From: Halichondria panicea
Taxonomy: Eukaryota > Porifera > Demospongiae > Suberitida > Halichondriidae
Assembly: GCF_963675165.1 (NCBI RefSeq)
Contig: NC_087383.1
Location: 2,138,979-2,202,978 of the forward strand
Direction: 5' to 3'
DNA: 64,000 bases
The notes below the pieces were generated by a model. The model was not told where the DNA came from. It did not search any database and was given only the letters and a program-made list of their open reading frames with translations. How positions within the stretch are numbered: position 1 is the first letter of the stretch; each line of letters starts with the position of its first letter. Both the position numbers and the translations under genes were made by a program. Below are positions 562 through 64,000 of this stretch, piece after piece.

Positions 562-3512
562 ATGGCCACTAAAGAGCAGAACCAAGGTATAAAGACTGTC
601 ATGTTTCCTATAAAGGATAAACCCAATGATTGCTAAAGCATAAAACCCTCATTGGTGATTGCTAACCTTGTGTGCTTGCTATCTATTTCAGAGCTCACAA
701 TTGACGATCTGAAGACAGAAATGAAACTGACTGATGAGCAGCTCAATACAGCAATAAAGGAACCAGATCTACCCGAGTTAGCAGCATGTTTCGACAATGT
801 TCACAAAGGCTATCTTGAAAAATTGGAGCTCTCACCTGGAGAGCAAACTGACGTGAGGACTAGAGCATATGTAGATGGCACTCTGGCAGGAATGTTGCTG
901 GCTTTGAAATTCTGGATTCTGACCAACGGACAAGACGCCACTTTCCAAGCTCTGCTACTCATCATACTCTCCCTGCTCAAAGAAGACGTTGCTGTTCGAG
1001 TGTGCAAGTACTTGTCTGACAAATGTGAGTCTGTCATGTGAGAGTGCATGTGGTCATTGTGGTACCATACGTTGTGGGAGTGATTGCAACCAAATAAGGG
1101 ACTTTCAACTTAATTGCTATTGTTACACATACAATTCTCTATTAACTATCACCAGGAATGGTACTCACCTATTGTTTTGTTTCCCCAGACTCCACCACCT
1201 CGTGTCCCCCCTCCCGAGAGAGGGTCCTGCTGAACCACAAGCTGTCCTCGTACAGGGACTACCTACAAAGTCGCTACAGAGCACGAGTATCCACATCAGC
1301 CACACAATGGCCTCCTGTTCCAACAAACAAAGTCTTCAAACTGGCAATGATTCAGAAGGAGAAAATACAGAGAGGAAGAATCGATGATGAATTTGTTAGG
1401 CTATCAATCACAGGAAAAATCGACGATATTTTACTTCAAAAAACTCCGGTTAACTTGACTAACATTTTCTCTGAGATTGGAAATAGACGAAACTTTGTGT
1501 TGATTGAAGGAGCTCCCGGCTCTGGCAAGAGCACCCTTGCTCTACACATCTGTCAGGAGTGGGCAGAGGGAAAACTGTTCCAAGAGTTCGATATTGCAAT
1601 CCTCGTGAGACTGAGAGATCCACTTGTTAGAGAAGCCAAGAAAATAGAAGACCTTCTCCCTTGTAGGAAATCAACACACGCAAGCCAGATTGGAGATGAA
1701 ATTTTAGAAACTGATGGCAAAGGTGTACTGTGGGTGCTGGACGGGTGGGACGAGCTTCCTTCTGACCTCCATGGAGACTCGATCATCACCAAACTAGTTG
1801 AACCAGGCTTTGCACAAGAAAGTCCGCTACATAAATCCGCCGTCATTGTAACATCTCGCCCGTCGTCTTCAGCTAAGCTCCACCCACGTGTATCGTCCAG
1901 GGTGGAAGTGTTGGGGTTCACTCCACATCAACTAGAACAGTATTTTACCGAGTGTCTGAATGGTGACTCACAAGCTGTGCAGACTCTACTGGAGAGAATT
2001 CGAGAGAACCCAGTGGTAGAAGGTAGCTGCTACCTCCCCCTCAATGCTTCCATTGTCGTTAATTGCTTTCTTTCTGATAACCACTCACTCCCCACATCCA
2101 ACCACGGGATATTCATATCAGTTGTCCAAAGCTCTCTCAAGAGATACCTCCAGGATAGGTTGGGGAAGACCACTCCAGTGGGAGACATCACATCCCCAGA
2201 CTCACTGCCCTCGGAAATCAGAACAGAGACCGTACAAATGTGTCAACTTGCATATCATGGGATCGAAAAAAACAAAGCAACATTTACTGACAATGATTTG
2301 GCCGCTCTTCGCATTACGAAGGAAATTTCATACGTTGGACTATTACAAACTGTTCCCAGTATCATTAGCGATGGTCATCTGGTTTACTACTGTTTTCTCC
2401 ACCTGTCTATTCAAGAGCTACTAGCAGCAATCCACATCTCTCTCATGTCTCCCAAGCAACAAATTTCTGTATTCCAGAAGCTGTTTGGTAGTCCTCGATT
2501 CAGTGCAGTCTTCCAGTTTTATGCTGGTATCACCAAACTGAGTACTAGTAGACCAATCCTCAGTTTGCTACCTCGATTCTTGTGTCCAGTTCCAGCCACT
2601 GTTTTTGATCTGGTCAGAAAGGTTGTCAAAAAGGAGAAAGAGAAAGAGTATGGTGAGCCGAAGCCCCTTTTGTTGTCCCTCATCAATTGTTTGTACGAAG
2701 CTGAAGACTCGTCACTGTGTGTGTTTGTGGCTAATCTTCTTAATCACAATCTAGATCTTGGTTGCACTACAATGAATCCTATTGACTGCCTCTCTGTTGG
2801 ATATTTCGCATCAGCTTGTTCCAACACCAGTAATGGATTCACACTGCGCCTCAACGATTGCTCTATTGATGACCAAGGCTGCAAATTTCTTGCCCGAGGA
2901 CTCTCCAAGTGTCCCAACTCTAATAATGATATTCCTACAGGAGGGATACACATCGCTGAGATTATCGAGAACACTAGTTCAATATCTGAATTGGATTTGT
3001 CTAATAATGCCATTGGTAACAGTGGGCTTAGCACACTCTGTGAGGCCTTGTCAACTAACACATCATTAAAGATCCTGTACCTGGGCAATTGCTCACTAAC
3101 AATATCAGACGACAATGGAGCTGCCCTCTATCAACTTCTGAATACAAACAATTCCCTCGAATTTCTTAATTTGTCTGGTAACACAGTGACTAGCTGTCGT
3201 CACATTGCTGCTGGACTTGCAGTCAATAAGACTCTGAGAACATTGAGATTGATTTCCTGTGCACTGACTGATCAGAGTATCGAGGAGCTATCAACTGGAC
3301 TGATCAACAAGATTGAAGAACTGTACATTTATGGTAATGACTCAATAACAGAAGATGGAATGAAGACGCTTGCCAGACATCTAACCACCCACTGCTCTGA
3401 ACTGACACTATTGTACATACCCAACCACCTAAGATCCTGTATCGAGACAGTATTCAGGGACGCTAACAAAGAGAGGAAGAGAAATGGACTACCCGAGATT
3501 AATTATGTTTAG
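562..3512 (+). CDS. DEATH-NACHT-LRR receptor (NLR1)
   Basis: Three exons: 562-586, 692-1024 and 1189-3512. They join in phase (G+AG gives Glu; T+AC gives Tyr) to a protein of 893 residues. Exon 1 gives MATKEQNQ. Exon 2 (residues about 9-119) is an all-helical DEATH-like domain ending in the W..TNGQDATFQALL signature. Exon 3 carries NACHT, with Walker A GAPGSGKST (227-235), Walker B LWVLDGWDEL (300-309), a VTSRP motif near 340 and a helical NACHT-associated region. Ribonuclease-inhibitor-type LRRs follow (about 670-880). Family knowledge: such proteins are cytosolic pattern receptors that oligomerise through NACHT and signal through DEATH. Ligand and partner are unknown. Start chosen because only this ATG gives phase-correct splicing; the same structure recurs in every copy. 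No frame break was seen. Confidence 0.9.
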
Positions 3513-7373: not shown

Positions 7374-8420
7374 TACCTCAGAAACAGACATGCAAGTTCG
7401 TTGTCTAAGGACATAATTATTGCAGTGCTTATAACTATGGCTAATACAAGGGTGCTCAGTTAAAGTCGACCATACATACTTGATCCATATTATACATGTA
7501 CCCTGGGAGCAGTACAATAAGTCAAGAGCTCATAGTAAAAAAGAGAGAGTATCGAACGCATCGCTATCTTGCATCAGATATATTCGGAAAGTAACGTGAC
7601 ACCCTGTCTGAAACACGTCATCAATTAAATTGATCAGTTACAAAGCAGGAAGTTACGCTACTTTCCAAATACATCTTATGTTACGTTGGATACTCTCTCT
7701 CTCTTATTATGGGACTCTTGTTATTAGCGGCCTCTCAAAAAATTGGCTAAGAATAATTACATGTACACAGCTGTAGGTACACACTTGCCCAACCCACTCA
7801 CCAGAGAGGACACCTTCGAGGTTAGGTAAATTTATGACCTCTAAAAGTAGCGACAGCTGCGTTGACAATTAATTTTTAATGCCGCGTCCTAAATGGAGGT
7901 AAATGTAGGCACACCCTAGTAAAGTAGTAAAGATTCTAACTCACTGGAAAATACGTTTTTAAGTGGCTATAGAAATCGAGGCAAGTAGACTGAGTAGAGT
8001 TACATGTACCTCCAATTAGATGAGACCCTCTAAATAATGGACACCAGCTCTTCAACATGATTTTCAACCTCCAAAAGAAGCTATCTCTGGCTTCAATAAG
8101 TTTTAAAAAGTGTTGCTTTAATTAAAGGTCTTACGGTAATCACATTTCTTACTTGAATACGTCGGGTTCATTACTGACAGGCAGCATTCTCAGCCTCAAA
8201 CTGTGCAAAGGAACAGAAAACATGATCCACGACGTACCTTACAAGGTAACATAAACCAAGAGATGAACCAGACAATCATCTATGGCTAATAAATTGACTC
8301 ACCATCTTTCCATTAGGAGAATGCTGTAATACTTTAGCAATGGAGCCAGGTTTTGTCTCTAGCTCTAGCTAGCTCTGTGGGTGAAAACAATATGTCTTTG
8401 GTGGGTGTGGTGGTGAATGT
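7374..8420. other. No gene recognised
   Basis: Apart from the short exon stubs listed with block 1, this stretch holds no reading frame I can support. The end nearest NLR2 would contain its promoter. Confidence 0.5.
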
Positions 8421-8474
8421 AAAAAGTGGGTGTATCTCAATCTTAGATATCTGAGATACACCCACTTTTTTTGC
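8421..8474. repeat. Hairpin repeat upstream of NLR2
   Basis: Same inverted repeat as at 429-485, with one mismatch in the left arm (CTCAA for CTCAG). Confidence 0.8.
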
Positions 8475-8561
8475 AAGTCATGCAAAAACAACAACACTCA
8501 ATAATATATTTCAGAGAAATCTAGAGCTAGCTAGCTGCAAGGCACAGATTTATTTACTGGA

Positions 8562-9517
8562 ATGGCCACTAAAGAGCAGAACCAAGGTATAAAGACTGTC
8601 ATGTTTCCTATAAAGGATAAACCCAATGATTGCTAAAGCATAAAACCCTCATTGGTGATTGCTAACCTTGTGTGCTTGCTATCTATTTCAGAGCTCACAT
8701 GCACAATTGACGATCTGAAGACAGAAATGAAACTGACTGATGAGCAGCTCAATACAGTAATAAAGGAACCAGATCTACCCGAGTTAGCAGCATGTTTCGA
8801 CAATGTTCACAAAGGCTATCTTGAAAAATTGGAGCTCTCACCTGGAGAGCAAACTGACGTGAGGACTAGAGCATATGTAGATGGCACTCTGGCAGGAATG
8901 TTGCTGTCTACTTAATTGCTATTGTTACACATACAATTCTCTATTAACTATCACCAGGAATGGTACTCACCTATTGTTTTGTTTCCCCAGACTCCACCAC
9001 CTCGTGTCCTCCCTCCCGAGAGAGGGTCCTGCTGAACCACAAGCTGTCCTTGTACAGGGACTACCTACAAAGTCGCTACAGAATGCAAGTATCCACATCA
9101 GCCACACAATGGCCTCCCGTCCCAACAAAGACAATTTTCAAACTAGCCATGATTCAGAAGGAGGAAATACAGAGAGGAAGAATCGACGATGAATTTGTTA
9201 GGCTAACAATTACGGGGAAAATTGACGATATTTTACTTCAAAAAACTCCGGTTAACTTAACTAATATTTTCCCTGAGATTGAGGATACACGAAACTTTGT
9301 GTTGATTGAAGGAGCTCCCGGCTCTGGCAAGAGCACCCTTGCTCTACACATCTGTCAGGAGTGGGCAAAGGGGAAACTGTTCCAACAGTTCGATATTGCA
9401 ATCCTGGTGAGACTGAGAGATCCCCTCGTTAGAGAAGCAAAAACAATAGAAGATCTTCTCCCTTGTAGGAATTCAACACTGGCATGCCAAATAGGGGCAA
9501 CAATTATAATTAATTGA
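8562..9517 (+). pseudogene. Truncated NLR2 (DEATH part + NACHT P-loop only)
   Basis: Exon 1 is 8562-8586. Exon 2 starts at 8692 with a 6-base insertion (ELTCTIDD) and then loses its 3' end: after GTLAGMLL it runs into former intron sequence and stops. Exon 3 (8991-9517) keeps the linker and Walker A GAPGSGKST but ends soon after CRNSTLACQIG, before Walker B, in unrelated AT-rich DNA. The DEATH exon has lost its donor, so normal splicing is impossible. Its NACHT block resembles NLR1 rather than NLR3. Confidence 0.85.
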
Positions 9518-20706: not shown

Positions 20707-21716
20707 TCACACAAGACACAGGACAGTTTGGGAGGTGTGGGCATGTGCCAAAGTTCCAATTGCGGCTGCCGAGTTGACAGCCGCAATAGGTCGTTTGTGG
20801 TAGTTAGTAGGTGCTTTGGGAGGTTCGTAGTCATCGCATTCCGTCGTTGCGTGGTCTAGGCTAAAGCATAATGAACAATGCTCTTTGGTTTTTGCATTTA
20901 CAAAAGCCATAGCATAAAATGTTTGATAGATCTCGCCCCACTTCATGGCTGGGTTAGCTGCAGCTGCTTTTCTAAAGTTTCTATCATACTGTATCCACCC
21001 GTCTCCAGCGTATTTCCGGGCCGTGTGGACGATTAGTGAGGAATACGCTAAAAGGTCATGCACGCGTGTGGGGTCACGTTGCGTGACAAATGAGACGTAT
21101 GCGTTAAAGCATTCAACCCACTGTAATATGTTGGCAACGCTGCGCTTTTTTCTGGGTTTCTCACCCGTATCGTTGAGGTACCCCCGAACGAGTCGGGTAA
21201 GAACTCCGCTAGTTCGATAAATTCCCCTTTTTCCGATTTTTTAGATAGTTTGTCGGGAATGGGGATGGCATTCTGGCCTACATTGACCGTATATGGAATA
21301 ATGCTTGGTATCGTCGGTAATGTGGGGAGGCTCATGCGGGTTTGAGTACGGAGGGCACTAGTGGATACGAGGGGAACATGTGCTAGTGAGGTACTTGACA
21401 TACCTGCCGTTCCGGTGCTGACAACAGGGCCTGAGGTGGGACTCCGTGGGGTACCCGAGCCGGAAGCAGAGATGGTTGGGATTGAGGGTGGGACTGATGG
21501 TGAGACTGATGAGGGGACGGCTGTGGGGTGGTGTTGTTGGACTGCTGCCTGAATCCGCTGGTCCATTGCGGTGATGATCGTTGGTAACACCGCGCCGAGG
21601 GCTGCCTGGACAGAATTGGCAATCATGGTGTTGAGAGTTGTCGGAGTTGTCGTCGGGTTGGTGGAACTGATCGGCGGTGTTCCAGTTGAGGATGTGCTCG
21701 AGGAGGTAGTGGTCAT
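20707..21716 (-). pseudogene. Gag-like retroelement ORF (longest copy, frameshifted)
   Basis: Starts at ATG 21716-21714. A Ser/Thr/Pro-rich N-terminus is followed by IPIPDKLSKKSEKGEFIELA and LPDSFGG. One base is missing near 21174 compared with the copy at 62.1 kb, shifting the frame. In the shifted frame the protein continues through ARKYAGDGWIQYDRNFRKAA and a CX2CX4HX4C knuckle (CSLCFSLDHATTEC), ending at 20707 in foreign sequence. The layout matches Gag-like proteins of invertebrate retrotransposons. No reverse transcriptase is present. It replaces EFR3 exons 1-2 in this unit. Confidence 0.75.
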
Positions 21717-21863
21717 CTTCGTATAGAGAATTACAGGATAGATCAGCAAGAGAACTGACTGCCTGACCACGTGTTCCTTGCGCATGCCAGTACCTAGTCT
21801 CATGAATCAGCCGCCGTTCTTTTGGAGGTTTTGTCTCAAATGTCTTTGGGTGTGGTATTAAAT

Positions 21864-21920
21864 GCAAAAAAGTGGGTGTATCTCAGTCTTAGATATCTGA
21901 GATACACCCACTTTTTTTGC
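21864..21920. repeat. Hairpin repeat upstream of NLR3
   Basis: Same inverted repeat as at 429-485, same spacing to the start codon. Confidence 0.85.
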
Positions 21921-21996: not shown

Positions 21997-24979
21997 ATGG
22001 CCACTAAAGAGCAGAACCAAGGTATAAAGACTGTCATGTTTCCTATAAAGGATAAACCCAATGATTGCTAAAGCATAAAACCCTCATTGGTGATTGCTAT
22101 AACCTTGTGTGCTTGCTATCTATTTCAGAGCTCACAATTGACGATCTGAAGACAGAAATGAAACTGACTGATGAGCAGCTCAATACAGCAATAAAGGAAC
22201 CAGATCTACCCGAGTTAGCAGCATGTTTCGACAATGTTCACAAAGGCTATCTTGAAAAATTGGAGCTCTCACCTGGAGAGCAAACTGACGTGAGGACTAG
22301 AGCATATGTAGATGGCACTCTGGCAGGAATGTTGCTGGCTTTGAAATTCTGGATTCTGACCAACGGACAAGACGCCACTTTCCAAGCTCTGCTACTCATC
22401 ATACTCTCCCTGCTCAAAGAAGACGTTGCTGTTCGAGTGTGCAAGTACTTGTCTGACAAATGTGAGTCTGTCATGTGAGAGTGCATGTGGTCATTGTGGT
22501 ACCATACGTTGTGGGAGTGATTGCAACCAAATAAGGGACTTTCAACTTAATTGCTATTGTTACACATACAATTCTCTATTAACTATCACCAGGAATGGTA
22601 CTCACCTATTGTTTTGTTTCCCCAGACTCCACCACCTCGTGTCCCCCCTCCCGAGAGAGGGTCCTGCTGAACCACAAGCTGTCCTCGTACAGGGACTACC
22701 TACAAAGTCGCTACAGAGCACGAGTATCCACATCAGCCACACAATGGCCTCCTGTTCCAACAAACAAAGTCTTCAAACTGGCCATGATTCAGAAGGAGAA
22801 AATACAGAGAGGAATCGACGATGAATTTGTTAGGCTATCAATCACAGGAAAAATTGACGATATTTTACTTCAAAAAACTCCAGTTAACTTGACTAACATT
22901 TTCTCTGAGATTGGAAATAGACGAAACTTTGTGTTGATTGAAGGAGCTCCCGGCTCTGGCAAGAGCACCCTTGCTCTACACATCTGTCAGGAGTGGGCAG
23001 AGGGAAAACTGTTCCAAGAATTCGATATTGCAATCCTCGTGAAACTGAGAGATCCCCTCGTTAGAAAAGCTATTACAATTTCTGACTTACTTCCCTGCAC
23101 AAACAAAGCGATGGCTAATGAAACAGAAACTGCAATTATGTCACTGTACGGCAAAGGTGTACTGTGGGTGCTGGACGGATGGGACGAACTTCCTTCTGAC
23201 CTCCCTAGAGACTCAATCATCAACAAACTAATTCGACCAGACATGTCACGAGAAAGTCCGCTACACGAATCAGCTGTAATTGTAACATCTCGCCCGTCGT
23301 CTTCAGCTAAGCTCCACCCACGTGTATCGTCCAGGGTGGAGGTGTTGGGGTTCACTCCACATGAACTAGAACAGTATTTCAAGGAGTGTCTGAAAGGTGA
23401 CTCACAAGCTGTGCAGACTCTACTGGAGAGAATTCGAGAGAACCCAGTGGTAGAAGGTAGCTGCTACCTCCCCCTCAATGCTTCCATTGTCGTTAATTGC
23501 TTTCTTTCTGATAACCACTCACTCCCCACATCCAACCACGGGATATTCATATCAGTTGTCCAAAGCTCTCTCAAGAGATACCTCCAGGAGAAGTTGGGGA
23601 AGACCACTCCAGTGGGAGACATCACATCCCCAGACTCACTGCCCTCGGAAATCAGAACAGAGACCGTACAAATGTGTCAACTTGCATATCATGGGATCGA
23701 AAAAAACAAAGCAACATTTACTGACAATGATTTGGCCGCTCTTCGCATTACGAAGGAAATTTCAAACGTTGGACTATTACAAACTGTTCCCAGTATCATT
23801 AGCGATGGTCATCTGGTTTACTACTGCTTTCTCCACCTGTCTATTCAAGAGCTACTAGCAGCAATCCACATCTCTCTCATGTCTCCCAAACAACAAATCT
23901 CTGTATTCCAGAAGCTCTTTGGGAATCCTCGATTCAGTGCAGTCTTCCAGTTTTATGCTGGTATCACCAAACTGAGTACAAGTAGACCAATCCTCAGCAA
24001 GCTACCTCGATTCTTGTGTCCAGTTCCAGCCACTGTTTTTGATCTGGTCAGAAAGGTTGTCAAAACTGAGAAAGAGAAGAAGTATTTTGAGCCGAAGATC
24101 CTGTTGTTGTCCCTCATCAATTGTTTGTACGAAGCTGAAGACTCGCGACTGTGTGTGTTTGTGGCCAATCTTCTTAATCACAATCTAGATCTTGATCGCA
24201 CTACAATGAATCCTATTGACTGCCTCTCTGTTGGATATTTTGCATCAGTTTGTTCCAATAGCAGTAATGGATTCACACTTAGCCTCAGCAATTGCTCTAT
24301 TGGTGACCAAGGCTGCAAATTTCTGGTCCGAGGACTCTCCAAGTGTCCCAACTCTAATAATGATATTCCTACAGAAGGGATACACATCGCTGAGATTATC
24401 GAGAACACTAGTTCAATATCTAAATTGGATTTGTCTAATAATGTCATTTGCAACAGTGGACTTAGCACACTCTGTGAGGCCTTGTCCACTAACATATCAT
24501 TAAAGAGCCTGAACCTGGCCAAATGCTCACTAACAATATCAGACGACAATGGAGCTGCCCTCTATCAACTTCTGGACACAAACAATTCCCTCAAATATCT
24601 TGATTTGTCTGATAACACAGTGACTAGCTGTCGTCACATTGCTGCTGGACTTGCAGTCAATAAGACTCTGAGAAGATTGGACTTGAATAACTGTAAACTG
24701 ACTGATCAGAGTATCGAGGAACTATCAACTGGACTGATCAACAAGATTCAAGCACTGTACATTAGGCGTAATGCCTCAATAACAGAAGATGGAATGAAGA
24801 CGCTTGCCAGACATCTAACCACCCACTGCTCTGAACTGACACGATTGTCGATACCCCTCCGCCTAAGATCCTGTATCGAGACAGTATTCAGGGACGCTAA
24901 CGAAGAGAGGAAGAGAAATGGACTACCCGAGATTTATGTGCGTATTAATGTGTTTGATGAATGGACTATGAATGACTAA
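21997..24979 (+). CDS. DEATH-NACHT-LRR receptor (NLR3)
   Basis: Exons 21997-22021, 22129-22461 and 22626-24979 splice in phase to 903 residues. The DEATH exon is identical in protein to NLR1. NACHT has Walker A GAPGSGKST (about 226-234) and Walker B VLWVLDGWDEL. Compared with NLR1, one Arg is missing before IDDEF, the block after DPLVRKA is replaced (ITISDLLPCTNKAMANETET), and the LRR strands carry many substitutions (for example LNLAKCSL for LYLGNCSL). The C-terminus is longer, ending VFDEWTMND. It probably serves as an intracellular immune-type receptor with specificity different from NLR1. No lesions were seen; expression cannot be judged. Confidence 0.9.
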
Positions 24980-36769: not shown

Positions 36770-37560
36770 GCCTAGCTTGCACTAATTTAAAGCCCTATTG
36801 ATTTATTAGTCATAAAAGTGCAACAAAAGCTGTGCTGCCTAGCAGCAGCCATTGTGAACTTTGACCGCTTTGGAGATACATAATTATGGCAGGAAATGCA
36901 ACTTCTGTTTCCTATAATTATTGGACCAAAGCTAATTCTCCAGAGGTGCACTTAATACACGGCAATTGGAGAGTGCCAAAACTCAACTCTGCAGTTCTGG
37001 TACTGTAAGACCTCTAATTAAGGTGACCCTCCAAATATGTGACACTCTAGAGCTTAGGTAATTTTCTGACTTCTACGACAGCTATATTGTGTTTTAATGT
37101 CGCGTCCTAAATGATGTAAATATAGCCACACCCTAGCATCGTTTTTAGAAAACACGTTCTAGAAATCGAGGCAAGTATAGACTGAGTAGAGCTATCCATA
37201 ATCAGATGCGATACCAGGTCTTCAACATAATGTTCAACCTCCAAAAGAAGCGACCTCTGGCTTAAAAAGTGTCGCTTTAATTAAAGGTATTTACGGTAAT
37301 CACATTTCTTACTTGAATACGTCGGGTTCATTACTGACAGGGCCTAGGGCAGCATTCTCAGCCTTAAACTGTGCAAATTAAAAAACAGAAAACATGATCC
37401 ACGACCTTACAAACCAATTGATGAACCAGACAATAATCTATGGCTAATAAATTGACTCACCCTCTTTCCATTAGGAGAATGCTGTAATACTTTAGCAATC
37501 AGCCAGGTTTCAAAAAATCATAACCCCATGCACAACATGCACAGTCTAATTGGTGGGTGT
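36770..37560. other. No complete gene; one short exon-like stub
   Basis: About 37310-37375 on the minus strand reads KAENAALGPVSNEPDVFK between splice-like sites, a relative of the exon at 26845-26911. No P-loop motor exon was found. Confidence 0.4.
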
Positions 37561-37567
37561 GGTAAAT

Positions 37568-37626
37568 GCAAAGAAAAGTGGGTGTATATCAGTATTTGGC
37601 ATCTGAGATACACCCACTTTTTTTGC
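37568..37626. repeat. Hairpin repeat upstream of NLR4 (diverged)
   Basis: Same inverted repeat as at 429-485 but with several mismatches in the left arm (GTATATCAG) and loop. Confidence 0.7.
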
Positions 37627-37714
37627 AAAAACAAAACAATATATTTCAGAGTCTGAGATAGAGAGCTAACTCTTCAATCTATGCTGCAAGGCACACATTT
37701 ATATATTTACTGGA

Positions 37715-38497
37715 ATGGCTACTAAAGAGCAGAACCAAGGTATAAAGAGTGTCATGTTTCCTATAAAGAATAAACCCAATGGAACTCACCTATTGTTTTG
37801 TTTCCCCAGACTCCACCACCTCGTGTCCTCCCTCCCGAGAGAGGGTCCTGCTGAACCACAAGCTGTCCTCGTACAGGGACTACCTACAAAGTCGCTACAG
37901 AGAACCAGACTCCACATCAGTCACACAATGGCCTCCCGTCTCAACAAAAACAATTTTCAAACTGGCCATGATTCAGAAGGAGAAAATACAGAGAGGCAGA
38001 ATTGACGATGAATTTTTTAGACCATCAATCACAGCAAAAATTGACGATATTTTACTTCAAAAAACTCCGGTTGACTTGATAAACATTTTCTCTGAGATTA
38101 GAGATAGACGAAACTTTGTGTTGATTGAAGGAGCTCCCGGCTCTGGCAAGAGCACCCTTGCTCTACACATCTGTCAGGAGTGGGCAAAGGGGAAACTGTT
38201 CCAAGAGCTCGATATTGCAATCCTCGTGAAACTAAGAGATCCCCTCGTTAGAGAAGCCATTACAATTGCTGACATACTTCCCTGCATTGATACGGCCGAA
38301 TAACAGAAGATGGAATGAAGACGCTTGCCAGACATCTAACCACCCACTGCTCCGAACTGACACGATTGTACATACCCAGACACCTAAGATCCTGTATCGA
38401 GACAGTATTCAGGGACGCTAACAAAGAAAGGAAGAGAAATGGACTACCTGAGATTAATGTGTATGCATTTAATCTCGACCATTGCATGTACTTTTGA
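37715..38497 (+). pseudogene. NLR4, DEATH exon lost and NACHT-LRR deleted
   Basis: Exon 1 is 37715-37739 (MATKEQNQ). The DEATH exon and both intron halves are gone, leaving a short intron before exon 3 at 37810. Splicing exon 1 to exon 3 stays in frame (G+AC). Walker A GAPGSGKST is kept. After ADILPCIDTAE a stop appears where a deletion joins the NACHT N-part to the last LRR (MKTLARHLTTHCSELTRLYI, 38315 on), out of frame. If translated, the product would be about 172 residues: linker plus P-loop only. Its block after DPLVREA resembles NLR3. Confidence 0.85.
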
Positions 38498-46869: not shown

Positions 46870-47471
46870 TTATGTAATATGTTGGCAACCCTGCGTTTTC
46901 TTCTGGGTTTCTCACCCGTATCGTTTAAGGTACCCCCGAACGAGTCGGGTAAGAACTCAGCTAGTTCGATAAATTCCCCTTTTTCCGATTTTTTAGATAG
47001 TTTGTTGGGAATGGGGATGGCATTCTGGCCTACATTGACCGTATATGAGACTTCTGGTCAAAGTAACGGAATAATGCTTGGTATGGTCGGTAATGTGGGG
47101 AGGCTCATGCGGGTTTTGAGTACGGGGGGGGCACTATTGGATACGAGGGGAACATGTGCTAGTGAGGTACTTGACATACCTGCCGTTCCGGTGCGACAAC
47201 AGGGCCTGAGGTGGGACGTACCCGAACCGGAAGCAGAGATGGTTGGGATCGAGGGTGGGACTGATGGTGAGACTGATGAGGGGCCGGCTGTGGGACGGTG
47301 TTGTTGGACTGCTGCCTGAATCCGCTGGTCCATTGCGGTGGTAACACCGTGCCGAGGGCTGCCTGGACAGAATTGGCAATCATGGTGTTGAGAGTTGTCG
47401 GAGTTGTCGTCGGGTTGGTGGAACTGATTGGCGGTTCCAGTTGAGGATGTGCTCGAGGAGGTAGTGGTCAT
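46870..47471 (-). pseudogene. Gag-like retroelement ORF, unit 2 copy
   Basis: From ATG 47471-47469. Several small deletions and an insertion (for example near 47342 and 47050) break the frame relative to the 62.1-kb copy. It ends at the same point next to EFR3 exon 1 as in unit 3. Confidence 0.7.
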
Positions 47472-47713
47472 CTTCGTATAGAGAATTACAGGATAGATCA
47501 GCAAGGGAAATCTTGAGGATAGACCCAGAAGAGAAGTTTTCTTGTTCTTTCACTGACTGCCTGACCACGTGTTCCTTGCGCATGCCAGTAGATCTACCGT
47601 GTTGGTTGCAATTGGTATCTGTACGTCACCTGTTAACCACATTTAATCCTTCTGATTAAATTCCATTATATTTCTGAGAGAGCTAGCTGCAAGGCACAGA
47701 TTTATTTGCTGGA

Positions 47714-48215
47714 ATGGCCACTAAAGAGCAGAACCAAGGTATAAAGACTGTCATGTTTCCTATAAAGGATAAACCCAATGATTGCTAAAGCATAAAACCC
47801 TCATTGGTGATTGCTAACCTTGTGTGCTTGCTATCTATTTCAGAGCTCACAATTGACTATCTGAAGACAGAAATGAAACTGACTGATGAGCAGCTCAATA
47901 CAGCAATACAAGAACCAGATCTACCCGAGTTAGCAGCATGTTTCGATAACACTGATGATTATCTTGAAAAGCTGGAGCTGTCAATGGAGCTGCCCTCTAT
48001 CAACTTCTGAATACAAACAATTCCCTTGAATGTCTTAATTTGTCTGGTAACACATTGACTAACTGTCGTCACATTGCTGCTGGACTTGCAGCCAATAAGA
48101 CTCTGAGAAGATTGGACTTGTAAACTGACTGATCAGAGTATCGAGGAGCTATCAACTGGACTGATCAACAAGATTAAAGAACTGTGCATTAGTGGTAATT
48201 ATATCACATTATAAT
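47714..48215 (+). pseudogene. NLR5 remnant (DEATH start joined to LRR)
   Basis: Exon 1 47714-47738; exon 2 from 47844 reads ELTIDYLKTEMKLTDEQLNT up to LEKLELS. It then fuses to the LRR region (NGAALYQLLNTNNSLECLNL) out of frame; the entire NACHT is deleted. LRR coding ends near 48210 in AT-rich DNA. The upstream hairpin is also absent in this copy. Confidence 0.85.
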
Positions 48216-50390: not shown

Positions 50391-51079
50391 CTGGGTAATA
50401 GATTGCATGGTGGTCATGTACACACACAGGTATACAGATACAACCATCACAACATCGTGGTAGTGGTACAGTAGTTATATAATTGCAGGTACATGTATTA
50501 ATGAAAGCACCGCGGGTGCTGATGCCTCGGTGGAGGTGCAAAGCTACATAACATAAAGCTACACACATTATCATGATGAATATTTTTGCATTTTTGCTGC
50601 ATGCAAACTCAAATTGCATGGTGGTCGATCATGTACACACACACACACAGGTAATACAACCACCATGTGGTAGTGGTACAGCTGTTTGCTCACTGCATTA
50701 CCGCAAAACAACAAAATACCATACAATGTTGCTATGCAAACAACATGTGGTCCTAAGCAATGATGGCTTCTAGCACTTGTATGTTAAATGGGTACTTTTT
50801 GAGGGTTACAAAAATGGCTAATCTGCGAGACCCTCAAAAATTACCCGCTATAAGGTGGTATTAATATTATAGTAAATGCTCTCACGATCTACTCTTGGTG
50901 GTATATATGGAAACTCACATACAAATTATGGTGAGGATCTGAAATGGAGAATGGGCGGGGACTAGCTTGCATATACCAGCAGATATGATATACATGTAGC
51001 TACTAACCGTTCACTGAATGTATGGAAAGCAGTGTGAAGGCTGAAGAAACTGTTAGTACGAAGTACTGCAAAGGACATC
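50391..51079. other. No gene; dispersed repeat at 50498-50612
   Basis: Sequence shared with 27240-27700 in block 3, including the GCACCGCGGGTGC repeat. No coding support. Confidence 0.5.
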
Positions 51080-52075
51080 AAACAGTGCATGTACATAGTG
51101 GGACCATAAGCAGTGCGTGTACATAGTGGGACCATAAGCAGTGCATGTACATAGTGGGACCATAGGCAGTGCACGTACATAGTGGGACCATAGGCAGTGC
51201 ACGTACATAGTGGAACCATAGGCAGTGCACGTACATAGTGGGGCCATAAGCAGTGCACGTACATAGTGGGACCATAGGCAGTGCACGTACATAGTGGGAC
51301 CATAGGCAGTGCACGTACATAGTGGGACCATAAGCAATGCATGTACATAGTGGGACCATAGGCAGTGCATGTACATAGTGGGGGCATAGGCAGTGCATGT
51401 ACATAGTGGGACCATAAGCAGTGCATGTACATGTACATAGTGGGACCATAGGCAGTGCATGTACATAGTGGGACCATAAGCAGTGCATGTATATAATGGG
51501 ACCATAAGCAGTGCATGTACATAGTGGGACCATAAGCAGTGCATGTACATAGTGGGACCATAGGCAGTGCATGTACATAGTGGGACCATAAGCAGTGCAT
51601 GTACATAGTGGGACCATAAGCAGTGCATGTACATAGTGGGACCATAAGCAGTGCATGTACATAGTGGGACCATAGGCAGTGCGTGTACATAGTGGGACCA
51701 TAGGCAGTACATGTACATAGTGGGACCATATATAGGCAGTGCACGTACATAGTGGGACCATAAGCAGTGCACGTACATAGTGGGACCATAGGCAGTGCAT
51801 GTACATAGTGGGACCATAGGCAGTGCATGTACATAGTGGGACCATAAGCAGTGCATGTACATAGTGGGACCATAGGCAGTGCGTGTACATAGTGGGACCA
51901 TAAGCAGTGCATGTACATAGTGGGACCATAAGCAGTGCATGTACATAGTGGGACCATAAGCAGTGCATGTACATAGTGGGACCATAGGCAGTGCGTGTAC
52001 ATAGTGGGACCATAGGCAGTACATGTACATAGTGGGACCATATATAGGCAGTGCACGTACATAGTGGGACCATAC
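51080..52075. repeat. 28-bp minisatellite, about 35 copies
   Basis: Unit ACATAGTGGGACCATAAGCA plus GTGCATGT. A higher-order duplication of about 312 bp is visible: the variant TATATAGGCAGTGCACG occurs at 51729 and 52041. Because 28 is not a multiple of 3 and the minus strand has no stops in the unit, all three minus frames stay open for about 1 kb. This is a by-product, not evidence of a gene. Confidence 0.97.
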
Positions 52076-52752
52076 AGTAGGTTGAATCATTCAAAGTTGA
52101 ATGTTGAAGTGAGTACTCACACCACTAAACCACAAAACAAAGCTGATCATGATTATGATATACCCACAAGCTTCATAATTATGTACAAATGTATGTGTAT
52201 CTTTGCTTGAACTTCTCCTAAGTAAGTGCCTAGATTTTCAAAGAGTATCTGTAGCACTGTTTTACGGATTCAGCATAGGATGAGGACCATGCCTTTGCTA
52301 TTTTGGCTCGACATCTCCACTTCTCCCGAACAAATGCTCTATTCTTTTACAATACTTTTGCTGACGTACATTAATTCTCTTACTTGGTTTGCTTAAGTAG
52401 TGTAGCAACACTCTGCACCTCAAGTCATTTGAATATGTATCTAGATGAACACCCACACATGTAGTCAGTGCTGTGTATTATCATGCATGGGCATCATCAC
52501 TACCGTCCCCCACACATGTGCAAGACTGCCCCATACTCACCAGGGTGTCATATAGGATTTTGAAATAGAGAGAGTAATAAGAAAAGTGACTAAAAAATTT
52601 TGCTAAAAAAAAAGGTCAACTGTTAGCAAGAGAGTTCATAATAGACCTTTATCATGAACTCTTGCTGTTAGTATGTAAAATTTCCAGCTATGAACTCCGA
52701 CTAGTACCTAAATGTAAATTTTAGGGGGAGGATTGGAGCTAGAGGGGGATAT
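52076..52752. other. No gene recognised
   Basis: Unique-looking sequence, then the hairpin near 52620-52673 shared with 14987-15027. Confidence 0.5.
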
Positions 52753-55699: not shown

Positions 55700-56990
55700 G
55701 GGGTACATGTACAGTGGATAATGTACACTGGGGGGCTGTGGGGGTACGTGTATTATAGTGGATAATGTACACAGGGGGGCTGTGGGGGAGGTACATTTAA
55801 GTTAATGTACCCTGGGGGACTCGGGCTGTGGGGGGCACATGTAAGTGGATAATGTACACTGGGGGCTGTGGGGGTACATGTAAGTGGATAATGTACACTG
55901 GGGGCTGTGGGGGTACATGTAAGTGGATAATGTACACTGGGGGCTGTGGGGGTACATGTAAGTGGATAATGTACACTGGGGGCTGTGGGGGCACACGTAA
56001 GTGGATAATGTACACTGGGAGGCTGTGGGGGCACATGTAAGTGGATAATGTACACTGGGAGGCTGTGGGGGCACATGTAAGTGGATAATGTACACTGGGG
56101 GCTGTGGGGGCACATGTAAGTGGATAATGTACACTGGGAGGCTGTGGGGGCACATGTAAGTGGATAATGTACACTGGGGGCTGTGGGGGCACATGTAAGT
56201 GGATAATGTACATTGGGGGCTGTGGGGGTACATGTAAGTGGATAATGTACACTGGGGGCTGTGGGGGTACATGTAAGTGGATAATGTACACTGGGGGCTG
56301 TGGGGGCACATGTAAGTGGATAATGTACACTGGGAGGCTGTGGGGGGTACATGTAAGTGGATAATGTACACTGGGAGGCTGTGGGGGGTACATGTAAGTG
56401 GATAATGTACACTGGGAGGCTGTGGGGGCACATGTAAGTGGATAATGTACACTGGGGGCTGTGGGGGTACATGTAAGTGGATAATGTACACTGGGAGGCT
56501 GTGGGGGGTACATGTAAGTGGATAATGTACACTGGGGGGCTGTGGGGGGTACATGTAAGTGGATAATGTACACTGGGGGCTGTGGGGGCACATGTAAGTG
56601 GATAATGTACACTGGGGGCTGTGGGGGCACATGTAAGTGGATAATGTACACTGGGGGCTGTGGGGGTACATGTAAGTGGATAATGTACACTGGGGGCTGT
56701 GGGGGCACATGTAAGTGGATAATGTACACTGGGAGGCTGTGGGGGGTACATGTAAGTGGATAATGTACACTGGGAGGCTGTGGGGGTACATGTAAGTGGA
56801 TAATGTACACTGGGGGCTGTGGGGGTACATGTAAGTGGATAATGTACACTGGGAGGCTGTGGGGGGTACATGTAAGTGGATAATGTACACTGGGAGGCTG
56901 TGGGGGGTACATGTAAGTGGATAATGTACACTGGGGGCTGTGGGGGCACATGTAAGTGGATAATGTACACTGGGAGGCTGTGGGGGGCTA
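55700..56990. repeat. 39-41-bp minisatellite, about 32 copies, EFR3 intron 6
   Basis: Repeats of GTGGATAATGTACACTGGGG followed by CTGTGGGGG(T/C)ACATGTAA. Length varies by one or two G. The common 39-base unit is 13 codons, so long proline- and tyrosine-rich frames appear on the minus strand (SVHYPLTCTPTAP) but switch frame at each longer unit. It lies between exon 7 and a partial duplicate of exon 7. Confidence 0.97.
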
Positions 56991-57106
56991 CGTATAATTA
57001 TATCAAGATATAATTTTTGGTTACGAAATACTGAATGTAGGGCATAATAGGTTCTTTCCACAAGCATAATAGGCTGAATTTGGGGCAGTGCTCAAAAGCA
57101 TAATAG

Positions 57107-62102: not shown

Positions 62103-62729
62103 TTATTTGTAAAACGTAGAGCAGAGGTTTTTATGTAATATGTTGGCAACCCTGCGCTTTCTTCTGGGTTTCTCACCCGTATCGTTTGAGGTACCCCCGA
62201 ACGAGTCGGGTAAGAACTCAGCTAGTTCGATAAATTCCCCTTTTTCCGATTTTTTAGATAGTTTGTCGGGAATGGGGATGGCATTCTGGCCTACATTGAC
62301 CGTATATGGAATAATGCTTGGTATCGTCGGTAATGTGGGGAGGCTCATGCGGATTTGAGTACGGGGGGCACTAGTGGATACGAGGGGAACATGTGCTAGT
62401 GAGGTACTTGACATACCTGCCGTTCCGGTGCTGACAACAGGGCCTGAGGTGGGACTCCGTGGGGTACCCGAGCCGGAAGCAGAGATGGTTGGGATCGAGG
62501 GTGGGACTGATGGTGAGACTGATGAGGGGCCGGCTGTGGGGCTGTGTTGTTGGACTGCTGCCTGAATCCGCTGGTCCATTGCGGTGATGATCGTTGGTAA
62601 CACCGCGCCGAGGGCTGCCTGGACAGAATTGGCAATCATGGTGTTGAGAGTTGTCGGAGTTGTCGTCGGGTTGGTGGAACTGATCGGCGGTGTTCCAGTT
62701 GAGGATGTGCTCGAGGAGGTAGTGGTCAT
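62103..62729 (-). pseudogene. Gag-like retroelement ORF, truncated (unit 3)
   Basis: ATG 62729-62727. 208 codons: Ser/Thr/Pro-rich start, IPIPDKLSKKSEKGEFIELA, LPDSFGGTSNDTGEKPRRKR, VANIL, then host sequence to a chance stop. The frame is intact where the 21-kb copy is shifted, but the WIQYDR region and zinc knuckle are missing. It begins just upstream of EFR3 exon 1 and is divergent from NLR6. Confidence 0.7.
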
Positions 62730-62929
62730 CTTCTTATAGAGAATTACAGGATAGATCAGCAAGGGAAATCTTGAGAATTATAGGGAAGAGAAGTTTTCTA
62801 ATTTGTTTGTTCTTTCACTGACTGCCTGACCACGTGTTCCTTGCGCATGCCAGTACCTAGTCTCATGAATCATCCGCCGTTCTTTTGGAGGTTTTGTCTC
62901 AAATGTCTTTGGTGGGTGTGGTATTAAAT

Positions 62930-62984
62930 GCAAAAGTGGGTGTATCTCAGTCTTAGATATCTGAGATACACCCACTTTTTTTGC
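62930..62984. repeat. Hairpin repeat upstream of NLR6
   Basis: Same hairpin as at 429-485, with two fewer A in the left arm. Confidence 0.85.
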
Positions 62985-63060
62985 AAGTCATGCAAAAACA
63001 ACAACACACCCAATATATTTCAGAGAGAGCTAGCTGCAAGGCACAGATTTATTTGCTGGA

Positions 63061-64000
63061 ATGGCCACTAAAGAGCAGAACCAAGGTATAAAGACTGTCA
63101 TGTTTCCTATAAAGGATAAACCCAATGATTGCTAAAGCATAAAACCCTCATTGGTGATTGCTAACCTTGTGTGCTTGCTATCTATTTCAGAGCTCACAAT
63201 TGACGATCTGAAGACAGAAATGAAACTGACTGATGAGCAGCTCAATACAGCAATAAAGGAACCAGATCTACCCGAGTTAGCAGCATGTTTCGACAATGTT
63301 CACAAAGGCTATCTTGAAAAATTGGAGCTCTCACCTGGAGAGCAAACTGACGTGAGGACTAGAGCATATGTAGATGGCACTCTGGCAGGAATGTTGCTGG
63401 CTTTGAAATTCTGGATTCTGACCAACGGACAAGACGCCACTTTCCAAGCTCTGCTACTCATCATACTCTCCCTGCTCAAAGAAGACGTTGCTGTTCGAGT
63501 GTGCAAGTACTTGTCTGACAAATGTGAGTCTGTCATGTGAGAGTGCATGTGGTCATTGTGGTACCATACGTTGTGGGAGTGATTGCAACCAAATAAGGGA
63601 CTTTCAACTTAATTGCTATTGTTACACATACAATTCTCTATTAACTATCACCAGGAATGGTACTCACCTATTGTTTTGTTTCCCCAGACTCCACCACCTC
63701 GTGTCCCCCCTCCCGAGAGAGGGTCCTGCTGAACCACAAGCTGTCCTCGTACAGGGACTACCTACAAAGTCGCTACAGAGCACGAGTATCCACATCAGCC
63801 ATACAATGGCCTCCTGTTCCAACAAACAAAGTCTTCAAACTGGCAATGATTCAGAAGGAGAAAATACAGAGAGGAAGAATCGACGATGAATTTGTTAGGC
63901 TATCAATCACAGGAAAAATCGACGATATTTTACTTCAAAAAACTCCGGTTAACTTGACTAACATTTTCTCTGAGATTGGAAATAGACGAAACTTTGTGTT
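63061..64000 (+). CDS. DEATH-NACHT-LRR receptor NLR6 (cut by window end)
   Basis: Exons 63061-63085, 63191-63523 and 63688 onward, with the same phases as NLR1. The DEATH exon is identical in protein to NLR1 and NLR3. Exon 3 is open to the window edge, just before Walker A. Over 940 bases it differs from NLR1 at only a few positions (for example ATACAATGG for ACACAATGG). The LRR half, where the variation between copies lies, is not visible. Confidence 0.88.

Follow-up and report, generated by a model that had tools for sequence, protein, structure and literature searches.

Amino acid change concentrates at predicted exposed strand positions of the leucine-rich repeats in a NACHT-LRR gene array of the sponge Halichondria panicea

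NACHT-LRR genes and remnants in the window

The window, by which we mean the whole 64,000-nt stretch of Halichondria panicea DNA analyzed here (C7:2138979-2202978 in a 131-Mb, 39-contig assembly), contains two intact NACHT-LRR open reading frames, NLR1 and NLR3, as well as several partial copies (Table 1). For both NLR1 and NLR3, the match to the Pfam NACHT domain is above the cut-off of 26.7 (71.2 bits, E 1.2e-19 and 78 bits, E 9.5e-22, respectively) and leucine-rich repeats (LRRs) are found at the C-terminus, with LRR_6 exceeding its Pfam cut-off in each, which places both among the NACHT-LRR proteins. NOD2_WH was barely above its cut-off of 23.1 (23.5 and 23.6), while NLRC4_HD2 scored under its own. 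A search of PDB sequences with NLR1 returned NLRP proteins, and the LRR part matched ribonuclease inhibitors and NLRP LRRs. Given this homology to the ribonuclease-inhibitor LRRs, the repeat register could be fixed as L1 x2 x3 L4 x5 L6 x7 x8 N9 x10 L11. The x residues of ribonuclease-inhibitor-like LRR strands face the concave surface, and the x positions in NLR1 and NLR3 are predicted to be exposed by homology to these solved LRR proteins. An ORF upstream of NLR1 (637-1041), conserved before NLR3 (22065-22478), may be an exon for an N-terminal effector domain; searches of 637-1041 against Pfam at E 1 and of 670-1041 against PDB at E 10 gave no match.

Table 1. Features of the NACHT-LRR copies in the window (positions from the first base of the window)
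Feature	Position in NLR1 or window	Position in NLR3	Strand	Basis
NLR1 (L001), intact NACHT-LRR ORF, 784 aa	1158..3512		+	ORF and Pfam
NACHT segment aa 150-240, diverged mosaic tract	1605..1877		+	silent divergence
Extra strand-like motif L x L x x, aa 532-536, upstream of strand A	2751..2765		+	47 copies
Strand A (x2-x8)	2838..2858	24272-24292	+	register and replacements
Strand R1	2985..3005	24419-24439	+	register and replacements
Strand R2	3069..3089	24503-24523	+	register; x7 entropy 3.18 bits, 47 copies
Strand R3	3159..3179	24593-24613	+	register and family entropy
Strand R4	3237..3257	24671-24691	+	register, family entropy and codon-position heterozygosity
Strand R5	3315..3335	24749-24769	+	register and family entropy
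Strand R6	3405..3425	24839-24859	+	register and family entropy
Unit 2, remnant of an NLR gene, cut short within NACHT	8388..9517		+	
NLR3 (L019), intact NACHT-LRR ORF, 794 aa		22595..24979	+	ORF and Pfam
Unit 4, NLR remnant, NACHT start adjoining last LRR, middle absent	37550..38461		+	
Unit 5, NLR remnant; its LRR fragment (47982-48199) has an 8-base gap when compared to NLR1	47256..48199		+	
Unit 6, 5´ portion of an additional NLR copy (L003), extending beyond the window end	62413..64000		+	

The sequences flanking NLR1 and NLR3 are nearly the same, with 1 of 839 bases different on the 5´ side and 20 of 975 on the 3´ side. Within the genes, the NACHT segment following Walker A is diverged (dS 0.62 and dN 0.27 for amino acids 151-230), compared to a dS of 0.06 for the LRR. 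At 1606-1690, unit 2 is nearer to NLR1 and unit 4 nearer to NLR3. This tract looks like an imported or a retained old block, silent changes included, and represents a regime unlike that of the LRR strands. The LRR fragment of unit 5 is likewise mixed in its resemblance, R3 being mostly NLR1-like, R4 NLR3-like and R5 mixed.

Several other features of the window were noted. The sequence at 62502-64000 repeats 1-1501 at 99.6%, reflecting either a recent duplication or an uncollapsed haplotype. Parts of 20707-21882 (minus strand) are found again where the window begins and around 62.5 kb. The ORFs in this region look gag-like, and two of them (20707-21240 and 21048-21806) gave no Pfam matches at E 0.1. 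Two minisatellites, at 50945-52094 and 55745-57015 with periods of 28 bases and 39/41 bases, respectively, stay open as long ORFs.

Replacements between the NLR1 and NLR3 LRRs

For the comparison of the NLR1 and NLR3 LRRs we used amino acids 558-760, a total of 203 codons made up of 35 exposed codons (x2, x3, x5, x7 and x8 in seven LRRs) and 168 others. The initial annotation had counted about 34 replacements and about 5 silent changes at 2838..3430, and the codon alignment gives nearly the same numbers, 33 and 5 (amino acids 561-758). The replacements were also said to cluster at strand x positions, and this was borne out: 23 of the 35 exposed codons are replaced and none has a silent change only, compared to 10 replaced and 5 silent among the 168 other LRR codons (hypergeometric P = 3e-14 for the enrichment of replacements). 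With the register shifted by 1-13 codons in either direction, 0-15 codons of 35 were replaced. The 28 codons for L4, L6, N9 and L11 show one replacement and one silent change, with L4, L6 and L11 replaced in none of the seven repeats. The further claim that the intervening helices and silent sites are identical proved nearly but not strictly true, as roughly 4 nonsynonymous and 5 synonymous differences fall in the 119 helix and loop codons.

Substitution rates reflect the same division. By NG86, dN is 0.463 and dS 0.056 for the exposed codons, while the values for the rest of the LRR are 0.029 and 0.059 (Fisher p = 2e-8 for exposed nonsynonymous versus LRR synonymous changes). For the LRR as a whole, dN/dS is 1.55 by NG86 and 1.8 by maximum likelihood (p = 0.12), not significantly above 1, and the significance of the pairwise result thus depends on the exposed class. 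A pairwise maximum likelihood fit with two fixed codon classes and a common branch length gave an omega of 10.9 for the exposed codons and 0.65 for the other LRR codons, with 2dlnL of 36.0 when the exposed omega was fixed at 1. In a parametric bootstrap under the neutral null, none of 150 simulations reached this value (maximum 9.1), and the exposed omega was 0.5-2.0 (5-95% range). The result was retained when each single repeat was dropped in turn or R1-R5 were used alone (2dlnL 26.6-41.7). The 35 exposed residues carry a net charge of -2 in NLR1 and +5 in NLR3. The exposed positions were first named from the NLR1 and NLR3 pair itself, and therefore the alignment of the wider family constitutes an independent test.

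Variation and selection across the array

A search of the genome of the sponge with NLR1 revealed at least 57 homologous members. The 57 that were scored, among 331 candidates, all map to C7 between 1.80 and 4.19 Mb, such that the array size is a lower bound; their main matches are 83-100% identical, and one has an internal stop. Across the genome, there are at least 102 Pfam NACHT matches (102 scored among 265 candidates). No relatives were found in genome_contigs and viral_contigs. We aligned 47 members, 46 with a unique LRR coding sequence. Besides NLR1 (L001) and NLR3 (L019), the alignment has 45 rows, including L002, which encodes the same protein as NLR1; the diversity described here is that of paralogues with open frames in one assembly, not of alleles. 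Ten members (L048-L057), each with two extra LRRs, were left out of the alignment. Repeat number therefore varies in the family, the additional LRRs of these members lying mid-domain. A distance of 200 kb separates the genes for the identical proteins of L001 and L002, and one of 300 kb separates L011 from L012, which have equal scores and identical LRR protein sequences; given these identities, some of the array members may stem from very recent duplication or be uncollapsed haplotypes. For the 900 bases upstream, the median difference is 14% (435 pairs from 30 members, some pairs aligning poorly). A general homogenization of flanks was rejected, as it holds for NLR1 and NLR3 and not for the family.

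The pattern recurs across the family. Among the 47 copies, the 35 exposed codons have a mean entropy of 1.59 bits, compared to 0.17 bits for the other LRR codons, and as many as 12 amino acids occur at an exposed codon. By class, entropy is highest for x5 and x8 (both 2.15), followed by x7 (1.79) and x3 (1.61), and is low for x2 (0.25), L6 (0.10) and L4 (0.02). When the 40 positions that vary most in the protein are taken, only 18 belong to the exposed set, and several others lie in the silently diverse NACHT tract. For 1034 of the 1035 pairs of the 46 unique LRRs, exposed pN is greater than LRR pS. The segment at amino acids 532-536, in which both Leu are kept in 47 of 47 copies and all three x positions vary, shows that a motif outside the chosen test set obeys the exposed-strand rule too. 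As a contrast set we used a second NLR family, found in tandem on C14 (six copies: L058, L059 and L062-L065). For this family, pN/pS is 0.57 at amino acids 541-700 and 0.46 at 701-840, both taken as LRR, and 0.21-0.28 before; no similar strand pattern was seen by eye at amino acids 700-835.

Selection at single sites was tested with our own script using a FUBAR-like grid with alpha and beta free per site and weights by EM. The values for single sites are approximate, given uncertain trees for short segments, a fixed kappa and a coarse grid. Since a separate tree was used for each repeat, exchange between repeats is allowed for. With these trees, 46 of 232 sites have P(beta>alpha) > 0.95, with 28 in the 35-codon set, 3 at x10 and the remaining 15 at other positions; a single LRR tree likewise gives 46 selected sites, with 26 in the set and 3 at x10. 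Thus, not every selected site is on the concave face, the 15 being neither in the set nor x10. In the remaining protein tested (amino acids 80-540), 15 of 461 sites pass, and 9 of these are at amino acids 492-536. Fits by class with the per-repeat trees gave alpha 0.5 and beta 4.5 for exposed codons compared to 0.5 and 0.5 for the others, and leaving exposed beta free was favored over beta<=alpha by 2dlnL of 171 (per-repeat trees) and 258 (one tree). Overall, the family class fits put amino acid change at exposed codons at approximately 6-9 times the silent rate. The proposal that diversifying selection acts on the exposed strand residues is thus upheld for the pair as well as for the family, and dN/dS stays above 1 when recombination is allowed for by separate repeat trees, as tested with our own script.

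We considered local hypermutation at strand codons, by a targeted mutator, a deaminase or template-based diversification, with selection playing a minor part. This would fit the very high nucleotide heterozygosity restricted to short codon stretches, and silent change at exposed codons is somewhat raised with one tree (exposed alpha 0.75 versus 0.5, 2dlnL 5.07 for separate versus shared alpha) and by NG86 (pS 0.10 versus 0.05 elsewhere). The per-repeat trees, however, give equal silent rates (2dlnL 0.00), such that silent change at exposed codons is not raised, or only somewhat. Codon positions 1 and 2 also vary far more than position 3 (heterozygosity 0.39, 0.40 and 0.17, respectively, at exposed x3, x5, x7 and x8). 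For R4, the third base is T in 46 of 47 copies at x7 and C in 46 of 47 at x8, with 11 codons at each; the third base varies as well at R2 x8, among others. Only three bases away from variable codons, the Leu codons of R2-R4 barely vary, with a single codon in 47 of 47 copies for L4 in R2-R4 and for L6 in R2 and R3. With so little variation at position 3 and at these Leu codons, the change respects the reading frame, which is expected of selection on protein and not of mutation alone. Silent variation is nonetheless present at strand codons (CTG in 11 and CTT in 36 copies at amino acid 563; ATT in 24 and ATA in 23 at amino acid 724). Silent heterozygosity is similar for strand L4, L6 and L11 codons (0.071) and helix L, I and V codons (0.064), and is 0.057 at four-fold sites in the remaining LRR. 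In addition, all six kinds of base difference are present among the 54 between NLR1 and NLR3 at amino acids 536-772, which also argues against hypermutation, and we judge this account very unlikely. Adenine-directed (DGR-like) change was rejected, as all kinds of base difference occur and variation follows the frame; an A is involved in 33 of the 54, as a raw count.

The strands also appear to be reassorted. There are 45 distinct seven-strand combinations among the 46 unique LRRs, and association between neighboring codons fades with distance. In the LRR, LD is 0.115 for sites 1-6 bases apart, within-codon pairs included, and drops to ~0.03 past 40 bases. Between different codons, r2 decreases from 0.068 for those up to 8 codons apart to 0.026 for those more than 25 apart, a difference matched in none of 2000 codon permutations. 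A Sawyer-type fragment statistic was greater than in all 1000 of 1000 permutations. The simplest cause of the distance-dependent association is an exchange of blocks ~1-2 repeats long, and the low LD is due in part to saturated sites that have changed repeatedly. Since repeated change at one site also produces four gametes, their count (3476 of 4095 LRR site pairs) was rejected as proof of recombination, for which we rely on the distance-dependent permutation tests.

Such exchange raises the question of an artefact, in which blocks imported from diverged paralogues mimic selection. The genes are indeed mosaic, the diverged NACHT tract lying beside a near-identical 5´ flank, and neighboring strand codons are associated across copies. 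Imported blocks, however, carry silent changes, as the NACHT tract does, and the dS of the LRR is 0.06, compared to 0.62 for the tract. Moreover, with exposed and other codons interleaved at intervals of a few bases, both classes have a common history; the pairwise test uses no tree, and the per-repeat trees permit histories to differ. We regard this explanation as even less likely than hypermutation. The least probable account is relaxed constraint, under which exposed residues tolerate change and evolve at the neutral rate, with the fold conserved: exposed residues are generally under less constraint and the structural codons are clearly constrained here (1 of 28 replaced in the pair), but the predicted exposed omega of ~1 is far from the 10.9 of the pair, outside the range of the neutral simulations, and from the family beta/alpha of 6-9.

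A probable germline repertoire and its counterparts in known systems

We therefore consider it highly probable that the array is a germline NLR repertoire with diversifying selection on the concave LRR face and recombination reassorting the strands. Selection for diversity would swap those residues that point outward from the parallel beta strands lining this face, while the fold-forming leucines, the interstrand helices and the bulk of the NACHT core are conserved. Recombination or gene conversion among array members would shuffle strand-sized blocks, such that every gene may carry its own set of contact residues. A matching ligand, once bound, might then release the NACHT domain, leading to oligomerization and signaling. 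The data establish the selection pattern and the mosaic structure, and the ligand binding, immune role and signaling in this scheme are inferred.

Large NLR families are known in invertebrates. In the family described here, the probable contact residues can be read from the sequences, being the same four or five positions of a repeat in one gene after another, and direct LRR binding by these receptors becomes a testable question with named residues. In lampreys, the LRR diversity of variable lymphocyte receptors arises via a conversion-like process in somatic assembly. The sponge family would be similar in having LRR diversity by a conversion-like process, although only genomic paralogues were seen here. 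It is also conceivable, if unlikely, that the array works combinatorially, with frequent short-tract conversion that starts in the near-invariant helix segments and copies single strand modules from one gene to another in the germline, perhaps also in the soma, so that LRR specificities are renewed in an animal without lymphocytes in parallel to lamprey VLR assembly.

Related patterns have been reported for other NLR families. Selection limited to the x residues of xxLxLxx is documented as classic for plant NLRs. In the coffee SH3-CNL genes, Ka/Ks is > 1 only at the solvent-exposed x of xxLxLxx and is diluted over larger regions (PMC3113787). The sponge and coffee genes share selection at exposed x as well as gene conversion among clustered paralogues, but the coffee genes are plant CC-NBS-LRRs, while the sponge genes combine NACHT with a ribonuclease-inhibitor-like LRR (PMC3113787). 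In the highly variable Arabidopsis NLRs, positions of >= 1.5 bits concentrate on the LxxLxLxx surface, exposed aromatics included (PMC8226289). The same is seen here, with recurrent LRR positions of >= 1.5 bits on the LxxLxLxx face and positive selection at these positions. The Arabidopsis values are Shannon entropy among 62 ecotypes, whereas ours are for paralogues of one assembly (PMC8226289). The NLR repeats of Podospora similarly combine concerted evolution with positive selection at the interaction face of the repeat, though these are fungal WD, ANK and TPR repeats with no LRR (PMC4986451).

Among sponges, NLR expansions of dozens to >100 NACHT and LRR genes per genome, comparable to that described here, are reported for Dysidea avara (PMC12909245) and Amphimedon, with 95 NLR candidates tabulated for Amphimedon (PMC5041008). 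In contrast to the present analysis, the available text of the Dysidea avara paper never mentions selection, positive selection or tandem (PMC12909245). No such pattern was reported for sponge or other invertebrate NLRs in the titles and abstract openings of the literature surveyed, and Yuen et al., 2014 (Amphimedon) may describe one. The zebrafish NLR-B30.2 genes are also a large family mostly on one chromosome arm, with domain-specific gene conversion and selection on the presumed recognition part (PMC4852459). The zebrafish LRRs, however, are described by the authors as not particularly variable, and they find selection in the B30.2 domain (PMC4852459). The sponge array, in which the LRR is selected, would thus be an animal counterpart to the plant xxLxLxx rule, different from the B30.2 selection in zebrafish.
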